From: Candidatus Uhrbacteria bacterium
GTDB taxonomy: Bacteria; Patescibacteriota; Patescibacteriia; UBA9934; GWF2-40-263
NCBI GenBank assembly: GCA_013204385.1
Contig: JABMNY010000016.1
Location: 1 to 35,261 of the forward strand
Direction: 5' to 3'
DNA length: 35,261 nucleotides
The position numbers and the translations under genes were made by a program. This document shows positions 4,584 to 30,857 of this stretch, piece after piece. Position 1 is the stretch's first letter; every line of letters starts with the position of its first letter. Below the pieces are notes generated by a model. It had not been told where the DNA came from, ran no database searches, and was given only the letters and a program-made list of their open reading frames with translations.

Positions 4584-4671
4584 TGGCGGAGAGGAGAGGA
4601 TTCGAACCTCCGATACCTGACGGCATACACGATTTCGAGTCGTGCGCATTCGACCACTCTGCCACCTCTCC
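4584..4671 (-). tRNA. tRNA-Ser (anticodon CGA)
   Basis: The minus strand folds as a class II tRNA: acceptor GGAGAGG/CCTCTCC with discriminator G and encoded CCA, anticodon stem CACGA/TCGTG with loop CTCGAAA (anticodon CGA, reads UCG), a long variable arm and T-loop GGTTCGAATCC. The length is 88 nt including CCA. Confidence 0.95.
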
Positions 4672-4786: not shown

Positions 4787-5305
4787 ATGAATGAGCATGC
4801 ACCCGCCCCATTTATTCGTCCTAGAATGGAAACTCCTGAAAAGCGCGTGGAGCGTGAAACCCCTCTTGAATCTCTTGAGGCAGATACCTTGAAAGTCGAA
4901 AGTTTCGATGTGTTTTATGACAAGGTTGTGCGTGGCGAGATTACTTCGCGAGCCGTGTTGGAAGCGTATGCTGCAGGGAGGTTCGGCGAGCAAGACTATC
5001 TTCTTGATGAAAAAGGTAATGATGTTATAAAGCCAGATGGGGGATATATAAGAGAACCGCTTAAAGAAAATCAAAGATTTCGATTGCCAAAGAATCAAGT
5101 TGAATTATTAAGTGTCTATAGTGATAATCGAGCGGAAGTTGAAAAGCGTAAACAGACAGCTCTATCTGAAATAACTGGACTTCGAAACATTTCAGATTTA
5201 CTTCTGAAAGCTTCATTCATGAGTGAGGCAGAATTACGTGCAAGACTGGTTGGGAGTATGACCGGGAAGGGTATCTTCTTGATGAAAAAGGTAATGATGT
5301 TATAA
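4787..5305 (+). CDS. N-terminal fragment of the giant modular FAD protein (frameshifted)
   Basis: This 172-codon frame carries the true start of the large FAD protein. It contains one complete module ending DYLLDEKGNDVIKPDGGYIREPL (about residues 70-96) and the beginning of a second (MSEAELRARLVGS). It then goes out of frame: in the shifted frame the sequence continues YDREGYLLDEKGNDVIKPD and runs uninterrupted into the 5434 frame. Comparison with the third module (RARLVGGYDQQGYLLDEKG) shows one base missing near 5254-5257. The residues after about 157 (MTGKGIFLMKKVMML) are therefore out-of-frame translation. It is either a mutation, a sequence error or one state of a switch. Confidence 0.75.
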   Translation: MNEHAPAPFIRPRMETPEKRVERETPLESLEADTLKVESFDVFYDKVVRGEITSRAVLEAYAAGRFGEQDYLLDEKGNDVIKPDGGYIREPLKENQRFRLPKNQVELLSVYSDNRAEVEKRKQTALSEITGLRNISDLLLKASFMSEAELRARLVGSMTGKGIFLMKKVMML

Positions 5306-5350
5306 AGCCAGATGGGGGATATATAAGAGAACCGCTTAAAGAAAATCAAA
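4997..5350 (+). repeat. 79-bp perfect direct repeat (4997-5075 and 5272-5350) with a third diverged copy at 5545
   Basis: Two identical 79-bp copies lie 275 bp apart, encoding YLLDEKGNDVIKPDGGYIREPLKENQ. A third, diverged copy starts at 5545, 273 bp further on. The unit is a module of about 91-92 codons. Because 275 is not a multiple of 3, deletion between the first two copies would remove the frameshift and join the start to the long downstream frame. Confidence 0.9.
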
Positions 5351-5433
5351 AAGGGAACACTGATCCTGAGATAGCTGAGGTACTGAATCAATCAAATTCC
5401 GTAAATGGAGAAAAAAGAGAGGTTCAAAATGAA

Positions 5434-8400
5434 TTGTCTGTAGATAAACCATTGGTGGACAATTTTTTTAAGTTAATCCAAAAAAATACAGAGCCTGCAA
5501 TGGTTCTTCGCGCAAGACTCGTCGGGGGATACGACCAGCAAGGGTATCTTCTCGATGAAAAAGGTAAGGATATTGTAAAGCCAAATGGGGACTATGTAAT
5601 AGAAGATAATCCTTCATTTCGGGCTTTTATAAAAGATCAGGAGACTCGAGGGCTTTTGGGTGAATTGAATGAGTTGTTTGCAAATGAGGCTATTCCAGAT
5701 GACGTGAAAGCATCCATGCGGATGTATTTGAAGTCTCAAGATCAGACGCTCTTAGACAGAATTGAGCAAGCGGCTTTAGCAGATGGAAAAGATGCTGGGT
5801 TTGTGGCGGAGTTTGTTTCCACTCTTTCACAACTTGAACAAAAAAAACGGCTAGTCACATTTTCTGAAGGGTTCTTTAAGATTCATGATCAATCAAATAG
5901 TTTTGATGATGCCCTTGTGTATTTGCGTGTATACGAAACTCAAACAGAAGATGACCGAGCACGGGTTGAACAATTTGCGCGGTATGTGTTTGCCAAGCGA
6001 CGCACTGAGTTCATTGCTTCATACGCACAAGCTCTAGACCAAGAGGTTGTTGATTATACCGCTGTACTTGAGCGGTTAAAGGTTCTCTCTTCTTCTGTTT
6101 CAAAACAAGACAAATCAGCCGTGATTCCGCTTGCCCGCCAAGCGTACGCACGTGAACTTGCTGAATTTCAAAAAGACGTACAAATGCGGTTGACCAGGCG
6201 CGCAAAACCTGAGGAGGTGTATGCGTTTATTGACGCACAACCCGTCAGACCATCCATTGATCAGTATGATTATGTGGAGACGATTACAAAAATGAAGGAG
6301 TATGCTCGGCGCATTCTGGGTGAGAGCGAAAAGATGGACCGGTTAAAACGGACAAATGATATCCGTGGCTTGTTTCCGACCGCTGCCTCAAGTGTAGTCT
6401 TAGAACAATTAGAGGCTTTTCCAAAAGAAACCTCGGAAGATCAGGCGATTGCTGTACAAATGCTCGAGGAGTATAGACAATTTGCTGCGGCAAATAGGCC
6501 ACAAGACTTTGATGAAGCATTTGGTCAAGAGCTTGCACAAACACTTGAATCAAGAAGACAGGGGAAGTTTGTGAAAGCGGAACTTGGGAGAAATAAAGAG
6601 GCGTTTTCCTATACACAACGTCGATTCACAGAAGCGATTTATCCTCTTGAGCAGGTTTTGCGTGATGATCCGCGCACGCGAGACGCCATGGAGGAGGTGC
6701 TAGGAAATACAAAAACAGGAGGTTCCGGTGAGCGTGCGCGGTATGTACTGCGGTTAAAGGCTCTTTCAGAGCAACGCCCACTTACAGATACAGAACGTTC
6801 ATACCTTGAATCTGTCGAGCTTTTATCTTTGCACAATCCGTATTTGGTGGCTGTTGCTTCCTCTGCACCAGGTGTCACGAAGGAATTTTTAAACCATCAT
6901 TTTGACCGAAAAACCAAGCTTACAGTAGATTCCTTGAAAGACGGAGATTATGTTCCTGCGCTGATTATTGGTTCGGGTCCAAGTGGGATGATTGCGTTTG
7001 GAGAGCTCGTGCGACAGCGTCCTGATCTGGCAGAGCAATCAATCTTGGTTGATGAAGGGGAGACGATTGGAGGGCCGTTTGCGATTCCTCGTGGACCCGC
7101 TTGGGAACTCAATAGCGCAAATCGTCGTGGGGAGGGGGGAGCATCTCTTCCCGATCGATCATCTATCGCAGAAATTGATACCGTGCGGGCGTATGGGAAT
7201 CCCACAACGCGCTGGTATCCAGGTGAACGTGCTCAGGATAAAGATGTCCGTGCAGGAAGCATCAATGCGACTGTCGATTATTTGCTCACTCCGGATGATT
7301 TATCTACGGCGAGATATCCAACCAATGAAGAATTGCAACTAACCCTCTCATTGCAGGCTGCACTTACGGTGAACAAGATGCTTTTGGGGACTCGACTGAT
7401 GAAATGTGAGCCCGCCCCTGAGGATGGGCAACCTGGCACAAAGTTGGTCACGCTTGAAATTCGTGAGGCAAATGGAGAAACGAAAGTTCTTAAAATTCGT
7501 ACAGACTTCATTCCGACATCCTCTGGGCTCGGACAACCCTCCTATGGATTTTCTTTACCTGGGTCACGTGCAGAGCGTATCCTTGAGGCAACTGCAAATA
7601 CAAACGATTTTCCAAAACTAAGTACGACCTTAGAAGCCTTTCGTGCTCTGGCGGATCGTCGCAGAGAGAAAAAAAGCAGTATTGGAAAAACACTGGTCAT
7701 TTGGGGAAGAGGAAACTCGACAGATACATTAATTGAGTTTGTCGGGAATATTTTCAATGGAGAGAATCCTCGTGTGCGTGACGTGACCAAAATTTATGTG
7801 ATTGCAGATGGAGACTTAAGCGCACGACCACGTTATGCGCAGATAACAGATTTAAAACCACGTAACGGTCGAGGAAACCTCGTAGAATTTATTAGCGCTC
7901 GTGTGGCAGATGCTGGATTTTCGGATGCAACCCAGGAGTCCATCCAGGTTTATGACGAGCAAGGACAAGTGATTCGAACAAACGATGGAGAACCGATTGT
8001 CGCAGACGCGGGAATTGCGGCAACAGGATTTCAGCCAACAGCGGGTGAGGTGTTTGCTCCTATGCTTCAAGATGGACAGAAATTTCGATCAAAGAATGAA
8101 ACAGAACTTGGAATCGAGTCTGTTTCGCTTCCAACAAACATGGATGTTGCCGTGGCCGACAGACTCAAATCAGACCCAACGGTACTTTTTTTGGGAACTG
8201 CTTCTCGACCACAGTTCAATGTGACAAAACTTGCGCAACTCCCAACACCTGCTCGAGATGCTCTTTTGAGAAATGGAGCAGAGAATGCCGTCGCTATTGG
8301 ATTTCGAGGTCCAGACACGCAAGCAGCAATGAACATTACCTTAAACAGTTTAGACATCGTTCTTCCAAATACCGTGGAATCAAAACGAGATCAGATTGCG

Positions 8401-8835
8401 CTTGATGGAGAGATTCAACTGGGAGCGGAGGTGGCGATTAGGCGTGTGGTTGCACCAGATGCGCTTGGAATTCCTGATGATGTGGAAGCGGAAGCTATTT
8501 TTCTATCGAGTCTTTTGGCGTATGAAGTTGGGAACACAATCGAGGTGCTTAATAGTTCTTCTGGGCGATCAAGAAGGTTCACGGGAGACGTTAATTTTGA
8601 AGTCACGTATGTTGAGGAAGCAGGACGTTTTCAACTCAAATTTACGGGAGGAGATCAATCTACGATTTCTCAACCCCTCTTAAATGAAATATCACGAGTC
8701 GTTCAACAAAAGGACTTTCAGCGCTATGCAATTAGTGCCTTGCGTAAACGCCGACGCGCCTCAAAACTCTCTTTAGATGTTGCATTTAAAAAAGGGTTTT
8801 TGGATCCTCAACGAACATTCGTACAGGAGAGTTAA
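5434..8835 (+). CDS. Giant FAD/NAD(P)-dependent oxidoreductase-like protein (main part of a frameshifted gene)
   Basis: The track start here is an internal TTG; the same frame is open from 5227 and is best read as the continuation of the 4787 gene. It begins with the rest of the repeated ~91-residue modules, followed by about 450 residues of charged, mostly helical sequence without recognised domain. At about residue 505 a Rossmann dinucleotide site appears (ALIIGSGPSGMIAFGEL, GxGxxG), then a second nucleotide-type loop (TLVIWGRGNSTDTL, about 752-765) and the ATGF motif (about 862), an order reminiscent of flavin N-monooxygenases and related class B enzymes. No signal peptide or membrane span is seen. 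Substrate unknown. It ends 2 nt from a convergent gene. Confidence 0.75.
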   Translation: MSVDKPLVDNFFKLIQKNTEPAMVLRARLVGGYDQQGYLLDEKGKDIVKPNGDYVIEDNPSFRAFIKDQETRGLLGELNELFANEAIPDDVKASMRMYLKSQDQTLLDRIEQAALADGKDAGFVAEFVSTLSQLEQKKRLVTFSEGFFKIHDQSNSFDDALVYLRVYETQTEDDRARVEQFARYVFAKRRTEFIASYAQALDQEVVDYTAVLERLKVLSSSVSKQDKSAVIPLARQAYARELAEFQKDVQMRLTRRAKPEEVYAFIDAQPVRPSIDQYDYVETITKMKEYARRILGESEKMDRLKRTNDIRGLFPTAASSVVLEQLEAFPKETSEDQAIAVQMLEEYRQFAAANRPQDFDEAFGQELAQTLESRRQGKFVKAELGRNKEAFSYTQRRFTEAIYPLEQVLRDDPRTRDAMEEVLGNTKTGGSGERARYVLRLKALSEQRPLTDTERSYLESVELLSLHNPYLVAVASSAPGVTKEFLNHHFDRKTKLTVDSLKDGDYVPALIIGSGPSGMIAFGELVRQRPDLAEQSILVDEGETIGGPFAIPRGPAWELNSANRRGEGGASLPDRSSIAEIDTVRAYGNPTTRWYPGERAQDKDVRAGSINATVDYLLTPDDLSTARYPTNEELQLTLSLQAALTVNKMLLGTRLMKCEPAPEDGQPGTKLVTLEIREANGETKVLKIRTDFIPTSSGLGQPSYGFSLPGSRAERILEATANTNDFPKLSTTLEAFRALADRRREKKSSIGKTLVIWGRGNSTDTLIEFVGNIFNGENPRVRDVTKIYVIADGDLSARPRYAQITDLKPRNGRGNLVEFISARVADAGFSDATQESIQVYDEQGQVIRTNDGEPIVADAGIAATGFQPTAGEVFAPMLQDGQKFRSKNETELGIESVSLPTNMDVAVADRLKSDPTVLFLGTASRPQFNVTKLAQLPTPARDALLRNGAENAVAIGFRGPDTQAAMNITLNSLDIVLPNTVESKRDQIALDGEIQLGAEVAIRRVVAPDALGIPDDVEAEAIFLSSLLAYEVGNTIEVLNSSSGRSRRFTGDVNFEVTYVEEAGRFQLKFTGGDQSTISQPLLNEISRVVQQKDFQRYAISALRKRRRASKLSLDVAFKKGFLDPQRTFVQES

Positions 8836-8837
8836 CG

Positions 8838-9485
8838 TTATTCTCCTAGATTGTTTTGTTCTAGGGTTGGAGTCGGAACGACGATCGATCGTGCCATTTC
8901 GATGAGTTCTCCGTCTGTTGCGTGGGTGCCGTCGGCGGCGATGAGGAGAAGATGGTTTGGTAAGTCCGCAATCAGCATGCGGGAGATTTCGCATCGGTTT
9001 GGAACAGTGTCCTCGTAATCGATGCATCGTGGTTGCGTGTCGATTGTTTGGATATAGAGCGAGTGGTCTGCGTCTAAGACGACTTCCTGTGTTGGATAGA
9101 TATGGGTTGAGAGGTAAGTTTCAGTGGTTAATTTCGGGAGATAATCAATTTCAACAAAGCGCGTGTTGTTTTTTATGTAGACAAGGGCAAATGTCCCTTC
9201 TGGGAACTCGCGTACGGTCATGGTGTAGAGTCCTGCTTGATAGAGTTCTGCGCCAAACGTTTTACTGGGAACTGGGACCAAATTTGGAAGTGGGGACAGG
9301 TCTTCTAAAATTGTGAGTCCTGTAACGTTCGGCAAAAGAGATCGTTCGTTTTCATGTGTCCAGTTGAGATACTGAAGCAGAATAACGCAACCTAAAATTG
9401 CAACAACAAGAAACAAGAGCACCTTTTTATTAACGGGGGCGGGTTCAGTGTTTCTTTTTCGAAAGAGAAGGCTGATCGCTGGCAT
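8838..9485 (-). CDS. Single-span anchored hypothetical protein of the polysaccharide operon
   Basis: The 215-residue protein has a short basic N-terminus, one membrane helix (KVLLFLVVAILGCVILLQYL, about 21-40) and an extracytoplasmic domain of about 170 residues rich in beta-type sequence with two cysteines (PRCIDYEDTVPNRC) that may form a disulfide. I do not recognise the domain. Its start lies 41 nt inside the O-antigen-ligase-like gene, so it is the last gene of that operon. The tail of the protein is separated by only 2 nt from the convergent FAD gene. Confidence 0.7.
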   Translation of the reverse strand: MPAISLLFRKRNTEPAPVNKKVLLFLVVAILGCVILLQYLNWTHENERSLLPNVTGLTILEDLSPLPNLVPVPSKTFGAELYQAGLYTMTVREFPEGTFALVYIKNNTRFVEIDYLPKLTTETYLSTHIYPTQEVVLDADHSLYIQTIDTQPRCIDYEDTVPNRCEISRMLIADLPNHLLLIAADGTHATDGELIEMARSIVVPTPTLEQNNLGE

Positions 9486-26029: not shown

Positions 26030-26617
26030 TTATTCAAATCGATGAAGCTTTGTTCTTCCTAAAACATGAAGTTCTGACATGGCGCGCGTAAGGGCGATGT
26101 AGAGGAGGTTTTTTAAGATACGTTGTTTTTCGGGAGTTCCCTCTGGGTCTCTAAATAAGTTGTTTTCAACTCCCACAAGGCAGACCACATCAAACTCCAC
26201 ACCCTGGGCTTCTTTGATATCCAAAACATGGACGTTTTCATTCTGCGCAAACGCAAGTTTAAATTCGCTTAAGTAGGTTTCATTGCGAGCAAGGACTCCG
26301 ACAGTTTGGTTTGCTTCTAATGTGTGTACTCGCTCTTGAATGTAATTGATCTCGTGAGTCTTGTCTGAGAGAGAAACTTCTTGAACAGGAACTCCTGACC
26401 GTAATTCTGCAGGGATCTCAACCGTGTACCCAAGCGAAGCAATGAAGGAGAGGATCTCTTTGGTGTTTCGATAAACCTTTGTGAGTTCCACAAGTCGTTT
26501 GGAAGAAATCGTTTCCTGAATCTGTGACCAGTCACGAACAGTTCCAATTTGAACTTGTTGAGCGATGTCTCCGATGTAGATCATGGATTGAGCTGTTTTT
26601 TGCCCACATGTTTTCAT
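26030..26617 (-). CDS. helD: HelD-like superfamily 1 helicase, C-terminal part (frameshifted gene)
   Basis: This frame holds the second half of the helicase. Although the track starts at an internal ATG (26617), the frame is open from about 26701 and there encodes the missing Walker B: HLFLILVDEFQNYLPEQI, continuing IYIGDIAQQ (motif III), the motif V-like VLDIKEAQGVEFDVVCLVG and motif VI LLYIALTRAMSELHVL. Together with 26614..27849 it makes a protein of about 600 residues. The ATG shared with the first frame's stop (ATGA) is probably coincidental, since starting there would lose the catalytic Walker B. Confidence 0.85.
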   Translation of the reverse strand: MKTCGQKTAQSMIYIGDIAQQVQIGTVRDWSQIQETISSKRLVELTKVYRNTKEILSFIASLGYTVEIPAELRSGVPVQEVSLSDKTHEINYIQERVHTLEANQTVGVLARNETYLSEFKLAFAQNENVHVLDIKEAQGVEFDVVCLVGVENNLFRDPEGTPEKQRILKNLLYIALTRAMSELHVLGRTKLHRFE

Positions 26618-27849
26618 GAGCCTAATTTGTTCAGGGAGATAATTTTGAAATTCATCGACAAGGATGAGGAATAGGTGATAGGGAGTCGGCCTATTTTCTT
26701 TTTAAGCGTTCCGTTATTCAGTTCTTGATAATATTCTTTTGTTCTCGTGAGCTCCCCGTGTGTTGCGTGGAATGCATTGAGTAAAAGCGTGAGGTCGAAT
26801 CGATCAAGTTGAAGAGCTTTTGTTTGTCGTTTGAATACGTCTAGTTGTTCATTCTCGAGAGCGTTATCATAAACTTTTTTCAGATAGATGAACGGATTTT
26901 TTGAAAGAGTCAGTAGGGGATCATGTGTCGTGTGGAGGATACCAAGTTTTGCTTGCTCGAATGCATCTTTCTCTGATTCATCCATTCCGAATCGATCGAC
27001 ATATTTTATGTCGGTAAGGCCAAGAATCGTCAGCGCCCATTGAGCAAATGTGGTTATCTGCACATGTTTGATTCCGAGTTCAGGAAGAAGGTGAGAGAAA
27101 TAATCTTGTGTTGAAGTATCTTGGACGAAAACGATGATCGAGTTTGTTGGAAACTGTTCCGAAGTCTCTGGGGATTGGACAAGGTAGGCAATCCGATGGA
27201 GAGCAAGAGTTGTTTTTCCAGAACCAGCCGGGCCTGAAATAACGAATGAGCCTTTATGATCTGCACGGATCACTTGGTCCTGAGCCTTCTCCATTTGCGC
27301 GACAATTTCAGGAAGCACAAAACCTGTTTTGTGCGTTGAGAAATGTTCTTGGTAAATAAGCTCGCGTTCTTGCTCAAGAGATTCTGTCGCAAGAAAAAGG
27401 ATTTTTCCATGAACGATCATGTACTGTTCTTTTGCTGATAGTGTTCCGCGAACGATTTTTCCGTCAGGTTGTGCGTAAGAGAAGGTTCCTGGTTTTTCAA
27501 ATCGAATAGATGCTGCGGGGGTGATCCAAGAAAAAATTGAAGATTCCTTGTACCCAAACTTTCCAAAGAACCAGTCCTCTTCTTGGGACGATCCTTCTTT
27601 TTTGATGCGACATTTAACAAAGTAGGGGGAGTCTTTAAGATGATCTAGTTCCTCTAATCGTGTTTCATCATAGGAGAGCAGGCGAGTAAAAATAAGTTTG
27701 TCGTCTGTGATCCTGTCGTGTTTAAAGTCTTCCTTGCGCATCTCAACAGAGACTGCAAGATCCTGGAATGTGTGATCAAGAAGAGAACACGTTTCTTTGA
27801 CCTGCGTTTTTGCCTGTATCAAAATTTGATCTTTTTCTTCTTGTTGCAT
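26614..27849 (-). CDS. helD: HelD-like superfamily 1 helicase, N-terminal part (frameshifted gene)
   Basis: The frame carries a coiled N-terminus, a beta-rich segment and the HelD-type Walker A loop SFVISGPAGSGKTTLALHRIAYLVQSP (about 209-216 in track numbering). HelD-like proteins are UvrD/Rep relatives that in Gram-positives rescue stalled RNA polymerase and in Enterobacteria are called helicase IV. I start at the second ATG (MQQEEKDQ), since TAGGAT ends 9 nt before it. The frame derails after KKKIGR: the last residues (LPITYSSSLSMNFKIISLNKLGS) are out of frame. The shift point is an A-rich tract, CTTAAAAAGAAAATAGG near 26690-26706, where a -1 shift restores LVDEFQ. Confidence 0.85.
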   Translation of the reverse strand: MQQEEKDQILIQAKTQVKETCSLLDHTFQDLAVSVEMRKEDFKHDRITDDKLIFTRLLSYDETRLEELDHLKDSPYFVKCRIKKEGSSQEEDWFFGKFGYKESSIFSWITPAASIRFEKPGTFSYAQPDGKIVRGTLSAKEQYMIVHGKILFLATESLEQERELIYQEHFSTHKTGFVLPEIVAQMEKAQDQVIRADHKGSFVISGPAGSGKTTLALHRIAYLVQSPETSEQFPTNSIIVFVQDTSTQDYFSHLLPELGIKHVQITTFAQWALTILGLTDIKYVDRFGMDESEKDAFEQAKLGILHTTHDPLLTLSKNPFIYLKKVYDNALENEQLDVFKRQTKALQLDRFDLTLLLNAFHATHGELTRTKEYYQELNNGTLKKKIGRLPITYSSSLSMNFKIISLNKLGS

Positions 27850-27858
27850 AACTGCCAT

Positions 27859-30287: not shown

Positions 30288-30857
30288 TTAAGACTTTTCT
30301 AGAAGTCTGAGTCGTAAATCTTGGTTGTAGACGATGTCTGTGAGTCGGTGGATCCTGGTGTCGACAGATGCAATTGTTTTTGTGTTGTCGTCGACCTTCT
30401 TACTAAGATCATCGAACCCTACTTTTGTCATGATTGTGAGATCTGAAAGGTCAGCGCGCATTGATTGACGTTCTTCTTTGGCTTCCTTTAGTTGTGCATT
30501 AATACCTTTAAATTGTGCATCGATGCCAATAAACTTCTTATCTACTCCAGTAAAACGTTGATCTATTTCCTTAAACCGTTGGTCTACCTGTTCAAACCGT
30601 TGGTCTACCTGTTCAAACCGTTGGTCTACCTGTTCAAACCGTTGGTCTACCTGTTCAAACCGTTGGTCTACTTGTTCAAATCGTTGGTCTACTTGTTCAA
30701 ATCGTCTATCGACCTGCTCGAAACGTTGATCTACTTGTTCGAATTTTTCATCGACATGCACGAAACCAGCGACCATTTTTTGGGAAAGGTCACCAATCAC
30801 CACATGGATGCCATGTATAGCTTCTTGGAAATCAGATTTTGTTAATTCTTCATTCAT
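30288..30857 (-). CDS. Heptad-repeat coiled-coil protein (minisatellite-encoded)
   Basis: The 189-residue protein is a long helix. After an N-terminal head (MNEELTKSDFQEAIHGIHVVIGDLSQKM) residues 39-94 are eight consecutive FEQVD[QR]R heptads, followed by four degenerate ones (FKEIDQR, FTGVDKK, FIGIDAQ, FKGINAQ). Hydrophobic F and V at a and d positions predict a parallel coiled coil. The C-terminus (VDDNTKTIASVDTRIHRLTDIVYNQDLRLRLLEKS) is another coiled segment. No signal or membrane helix. Probably a cytoplasmic spacer or filament-like protein. TATAAT lies 11 nt before the ATG; no ribosome site. Confidence 0.8.
   Translation of the reverse strand: MNEELTKSDFQEAIHGIHVVIGDLSQKMVAGFVHVDEKFEQVDQRFEQVDRRFEQVDQRFEQVDQRFEQVDQRFEQVDQRFEQVDQRFEQVDQRFKEIDQRFTGVDKKFIGIDAQFKGINAQLKEAKEERQSMRADLSDLTIMTKVGFDDLSKKVDDNTKTIASVDTRIHRLTDIVYNQDLRLRLLEKS
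30576..30743 (-). repeat. 21-bp minisatellite (8 copies) inside the coiled-coil gene
   Basis: Eight 21-bp units, several identical (TTGGTCTACCTGTTCAAACCG read on the plus strand, with a few third-position changes), encode the FEQVDQR heptads. In-frame gain or loss of units would change coil length by 7 residues each. Confidence 0.92.

Follow-up and report, generated by a model that had tools for sequence, protein, structure and literature searches.

The window, a stretch of 35,261 nucleotides that makes up one whole contig of the 1.05-Mb genome (48 contigs) of an uncultured, ultra-small Candidatus Uhrbacteria bacterium, carries a large gene that begins with an array of repeated modules and whose reading frame, in the assembly, is broken inside the second module. 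We consider it fairly probable that the modules form a recombining array in a rare, patchily distributed orphan gene, and that this gene is dispensable and laterally acquired and had its frame broken by a recent mutation.

Results

The gene begins with an array of three modules

The two copies of the module core at 4997–5075 (YLLDEKGNDVIKPDGGYIREPLKENQ) and 5272–5350, both on the plus strand, had been reported as identical in an earlier note on this DNA, and alignment bore this out at 79/79 bases, with the match extendable on neither side. This was the longest exact direct repeat of the window, compared to 13–17 bp in 20 random windows generated from the same sequence with a first-order Markov model. 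The earlier note had not listed a third, diverged copy at 5540–5623 (plus strand), which is 69% identical to copy 1 at the DNA level. All three copies encode a module of the form YLLDEKGxDxxKPxGxYxxE; copies 1 and 2 do not differ at synonymous sites either. The linkers between the modules of the window showed no significant similarity to each other. Because the 79/79 identity ends abruptly and the linkers share nothing significant, the tract appears to have been homogenised independently of its flanks and to be short, as in gene conversion. No further copies of the module were found elsewhere in the genome.

Over 20 codons, modules 1 and 3 (4997–5056 and 5545–5604) differ by seven amino-acid differences and one synonymous difference, hinting at diversifying change between these modules at sites too few to test.

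Both other homologues carry an array of their own

A search of about 1,400 Patescibacteria genomes returned long homologues in three genomes, including that of the window. The other two, G391 and G728, belong to other lineages, with G728 outside the class of the window, and their proteins are about 40–50% identical to that of the window. The other five genomes of the genus yielded no homologue, nor did the sampled family and order, apart from a weak match in G046; no relatives were found in phages, plasmids or viral contigs. The C-terminal parts of the three homologues are about equally distant from each other (50–53%) regardless of class. Ahead of the first module, the window gene has a leader homologous to that of the G728 gene, at 39% over 61 aa (E 2e-12).

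The same architecture was present in both of the other homologues. The G391 gene, which is split over two contigs, has an N-terminal array of two copies of 162 nt at 98% identity, followed beyond a 100-N gap by part of a third. In G728, an incomplete first copy precedes a 10-N gap, and the two other copies, of 169 nt, match each other at 100%. As both arrays contain N runs, their copy numbers are uncertain, and the comparison covers n = 3 homologues. The module cores of different lineages have only a few residues in common. Copies that are highly alike within each gene but strongly diverged from one gene to another are the mark of homogenisation, and the N-terminal array likely belongs to the family as a whole, with its copies homogenised gene by gene. 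We infer recombination as the cause of copy identity from that identity alone.

Matches in G046, G616 and G1166 may be distant relatives of the Rossmann-like part and show no modules. Such candidate relatives from other Patescibacteria, at L009, L027 and L105, are 1291, 464 and 835 aa long, have no visible modules and gave no Pfam matches above the curated cut-offs. Profile matches in G845 and in G793, the latter to a UvrD-type helicase, were judged to be chance.

The C-terminal part carries flavoprotein-like motifs

The long frame contains GSGPSG and ATGF motifs (pattern search), and a second Rossmann-like motif, GRGNS, could be read from the sequence; in the homologues this second motif is GRGNSA or GGGNSA. 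The motifs suggest two putative dinucleotide-binding folds, as in flavoprotein oxidoreductases, and the name ‘FAD gene’ is a motif-based label. In class B type flavoprotein monooxygenases, GxGxxG is followed by a second motif, GxGNSx, and then by ATGF, and the window gene has apparent counterparts of all three in this order. Unlike these enzymes, it has a long extra N-terminal region, the FxGxxxHxxxW/P fingerprint was absent from all three homologues (pattern search), and neither Pfam nor the PDB gave a significant match. Against Pfam and NCBIfam the long frame had nothing below E = 1, the best Pfam match of the C-terminal half was NAD_binding_9 at E = 0.22, and no Pfam or NCBIfam model covers the protein family. 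The Kyte-Doolittle maximum for a 19-aa stretch was 1.29 in the long frame and 1.07 in the N-terminal frame, neither strongly hydrophobic. AlphaFold models were too poor for use, with a pLDDT of 35 for the C-terminal half and 57 for the module.

The gene occupies a site that is empty in the sister genome

On its left the gene is bordered by a tRNA-Ser (CGA) at 4584–4671 (minus strand, ARAGORN), and on its right by a gene for a 215-aa protein at 8838–9485 (minus strand). The sister genome G003 is syntenic over most of the window, including the right neighbour, at roughly 65–82% nucleotide identity. There, the homologue of the right neighbour ends 151 bp before the tRNA-Ser(CGA) with no gene between them; the same interval in the window is 4.2 kb long and holds the FAD-like gene. 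Two relatives of G391 also lack the gene, and in them the sequences that match the two flanks of the G391 gene lie about 0.6 kb apart. The gene looks like a lone accessory insertion, and we infer lateral acquisition as the simplest reading of this distribution, with many losses as the alternative.

On contig L025 of G728, an intact tRNA-Thr and, after it, part of a second tRNA copy (reverse strand, 2434–2719) stand upstream of the homologue, an arrangement that appears as left by integration at a tRNA gene. In G003, a recombinase-like gene (L107:4737–6323), whose frame crosses an N run, lies directly beside the tRNA-Ser(CGA), on the side opposite to that of the FAD-like gene in the window; judged by its sequence it is a putative serine recombinase. 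The tRNA-Ser(CGA) may be an integration hotspot.

The assembled reading frame breaks inside module 2

The earlier note had placed the start frame and the long frame one base out of register, and both the open frames and codon usage agreed with this. The start frame, which opens at ATG 4787 (4787–5305, plus strand, 172 aa), contains the conserved leader, module 1, the linker and the first part of module 2, and runs past the break to a stop at 5303–5305. The long frame (5227–8835, plus strand, 1,202 codons) contains the rest of the module array, a middle region and the C-terminal two-Rossmann-like region; its first listed start is TTG 5434, giving 1,133 aa. Both frames are open over 5227–5302. 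Codon-usage scoring favored the start frame as coding until ~5237 and the long frame from ~5237–5267 onwards, which indicates a sharp single-base register change in module 2. In agreement with this, the module 2 peptide is split over two frames, the start frame giving RARLVG and the long frame YDREGYLLDE, whereas module 3 reads RARLVGGYDQQGYLLDE within one frame; the register thus shifts by a single base within module 2. Together, codon usage and module alignment place it at 5240–5260 on the plus strand, as a deficit of one base, relative to module 3, at a short G-run. Neither a homopolymer of 6–7 or more nor a tandem array was found at the break.

An assembly or sequencing error may have made the break, in which case the gene would be intact and only the array real. 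This explanation, which is compatible with the array part of the one we prefer, is possible, though short of likely. It would fit a deficit of a single base at a short G-run, the gaps in the G391 and G728 arrays, which suggest that the region is hard to assemble, and the presence on the same contig of a second frame-broken gene, for a helicase (26030–27858, minus strand). However, a 79-bp repeat is short for modern assembly, and about 42,000 aligned codons of conserved genes contained no convincing frameshift relative to the sister genome, so random assembly error is infrequent. Of the two, we hold a real and recent mutation to be somewhat more probable than an error of assembly. Two flagged frameshift cases in that comparison were judged spurious: in one, the first piece lay upstream of the sugar transferase proper, and in the other the matched frame had internal stops and no family match and was probably not a real gene.

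We regard as doubtful, and overlapping with our preferred explanation, the view that the gene is a decaying pseudogene, which was acquired, proved useless and is starting to degrade with its repeats as a relic. The frame break itself, the second broken gene on the contig and the accessory nature of the gene, which is absent from the rest of the sampled genus, are what this view would predict. The remaining 1,200 codons are nevertheless open, codon usage in the scored part is coding-like, and the conserved motifs are common to the homologues.

The broken helicase gene is UvrD/HelD-like and is divided over two frames, with the break near 26660 and an LVDEFQN motif in the second frame. Its pieces weakly match PADLOC UvrD-type helicases (NERD+UvrD, GajB). 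Elsewhere in the window, a 189-aa protein (30288–30857, minus strand) contains about eight 21-bp tandem repeats encoding FEQVDQR heptads; it is likely a coiled coil, possibly of variable length.

The repeat spacing adds no independent support for a switch

The earlier note had proposed that deletion between copies 1 and 2 would join the ATG to the long frame, and had seen in this a possible ON/OFF or module-number switch. The arithmetic holds, as the copies are 275 bp apart, which is 2 mod 3. It is, however, just the one-base deficit stated in another way. Each of copies 1 and 2, in its own reading frame, encodes one and the same peptide, and a deletion between them consequently keeps the module in register and removes any break that lies between. 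Frame rescue is thus automatic for any such break, and the 2 mod 3 spacing provides no independent evidence for a switch.

Among the other spacings between adjacent copies, those between G391 copies 1 and 2 (285), the last two G728 copies (255) and copies 2 and 3 of the window (273) are all multiples of three, leaving the broken pair as the only measurable spacing that is not. The remaining G391 and G728 spacings cross assembly gaps and were left out of this comparison. As the measurable adjacent copies of G391 and G728 are in frame, exchange there would change the number of modules without switching the frame.

An ON/OFF (phase) switch in the population, driven by exchange between the 79-bp copies or by loss or gain of a base in module 2, is in our judgment very unlikely. 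The start codon would indeed join the long frame upon deletion between the copies, and ~1,200 codons have been kept free of stops in the long frame, which suggests that it was functional until recently. Yet frame rescue would accompany any break between repeats that share a frame, the deletion is one-way and costs a module, the measurable copies of G391 and G728 reveal no OFF state, and the short G-run at the break does not resemble contingency tracts. The comparative data make module recombination likely and a change in module number possible; an ON/OFF switch is possible arithmetically, and a regulated one is unsupported.

Programmed –1 frameshifting at a GAAAAAG heptamer of suitable phase in the overlap (about 5282–5290), which could join the frames since both are open over 5227–5302 and the upstream frame reads ATG AAA AAG there, is highly improbable: the heptamer differs from the canonical A AAA AAG, and homology and codon usage put the frame change at 5240–5260, before the heptamer, so that the frameshift product would carry a non-homologous stretch.

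Discussion

Our preferred explanation, a recombining array in an orphan gene broken by a recent mutation, would account for these observations as follows. The gene would encode a large, patchily distributed Patescibacteria protein whose C-terminal part carries flavin/NAD(P)-binding-like motifs, and would begin with two to three modules, each composed of a core of about 26–55 aa and a variable linker. Recombination, by unequal exchange or short-tract gene conversion, would keep the cores within a gene nearly identical while those of different lineages come to differ strongly. In the window, the 79-bp tract would have been copied recently between modules 1 and 2, and the one-base deficit in module 2 breaks the frame, most likely by a mutation that appears recent, with an assembly error as the other possibility. 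Exchange between cores would normally alter the number of modules in frame; here it would also delete the broken stretch, as a by-product of repeats that share a frame.

Several known systems resemble this array in part. Periscope proteins are surface proteins of variable length, with highly identical tandem domains whose number varies through highly identical in-frame repeats (PMC8201768). The window gene and its homologues resemble this in part: they hold nearly identical tandem modules, in frame at the measurable copies of G391 and G728, and the high DNA identity would be expected to drive changes in module number by intragenic recombination. Unlike periscope proteins, the window gene has an N-terminal array of only 2–3 modules, which are short and have linkers unrelated to each other, in an enzyme-like protein; its frame is broken, and its protein has no strongly hydrophobic segment and no surface anchor that we could see. 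The likeness is one of repeat behavior; with length variation not demonstrated, we do not file the gene as a member.

Our literature search for phase variation with repeats in CPR bacteria found a single study, on a hypervariable repeat gene of Gracilibacterium, a predicted extracellular protein with tripeptide PTD repeats that vary at synonymous sites, which assembles poorly (PMC6851277). Both are repeat loci inside a gene of a CPR bacterium with poor assembly, but the modules of the window comprise tens of residues, and even their synonymous sites are unchanged between copies 1 and 2. As in simple-sequence-repeat contingency genes, a one-base register change separates OFF-like from ON-like states. 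Unlike in those genes, the break has no long homopolymer or short tandem tract, and a second state was not seen in the one assembly.

A bolder possibility, which we advance as speculative and unlikely, is an undescribed, laterally moving single gene of Patescibacteria in which each host actively reshuffles or homogenises the N-terminal modules and the flavin-like enzyme part at the C-terminus stays conserved. The modules could then be interchangeable binding units or even in-cis substrates of the enzyme part, with their number and frame varying in the population.

Intragenic concerted evolution of modules is best described in surface proteins of cultured bacteria. Each of the three long members that we found of this rare, enzyme-like gene, scattered across Patescibacteria, has an array, which suggests that these minimal genomes benefit from module exchange or at least tolerate it, and such exchange may explain broken or gapped genes of this kind in draft assemblies.
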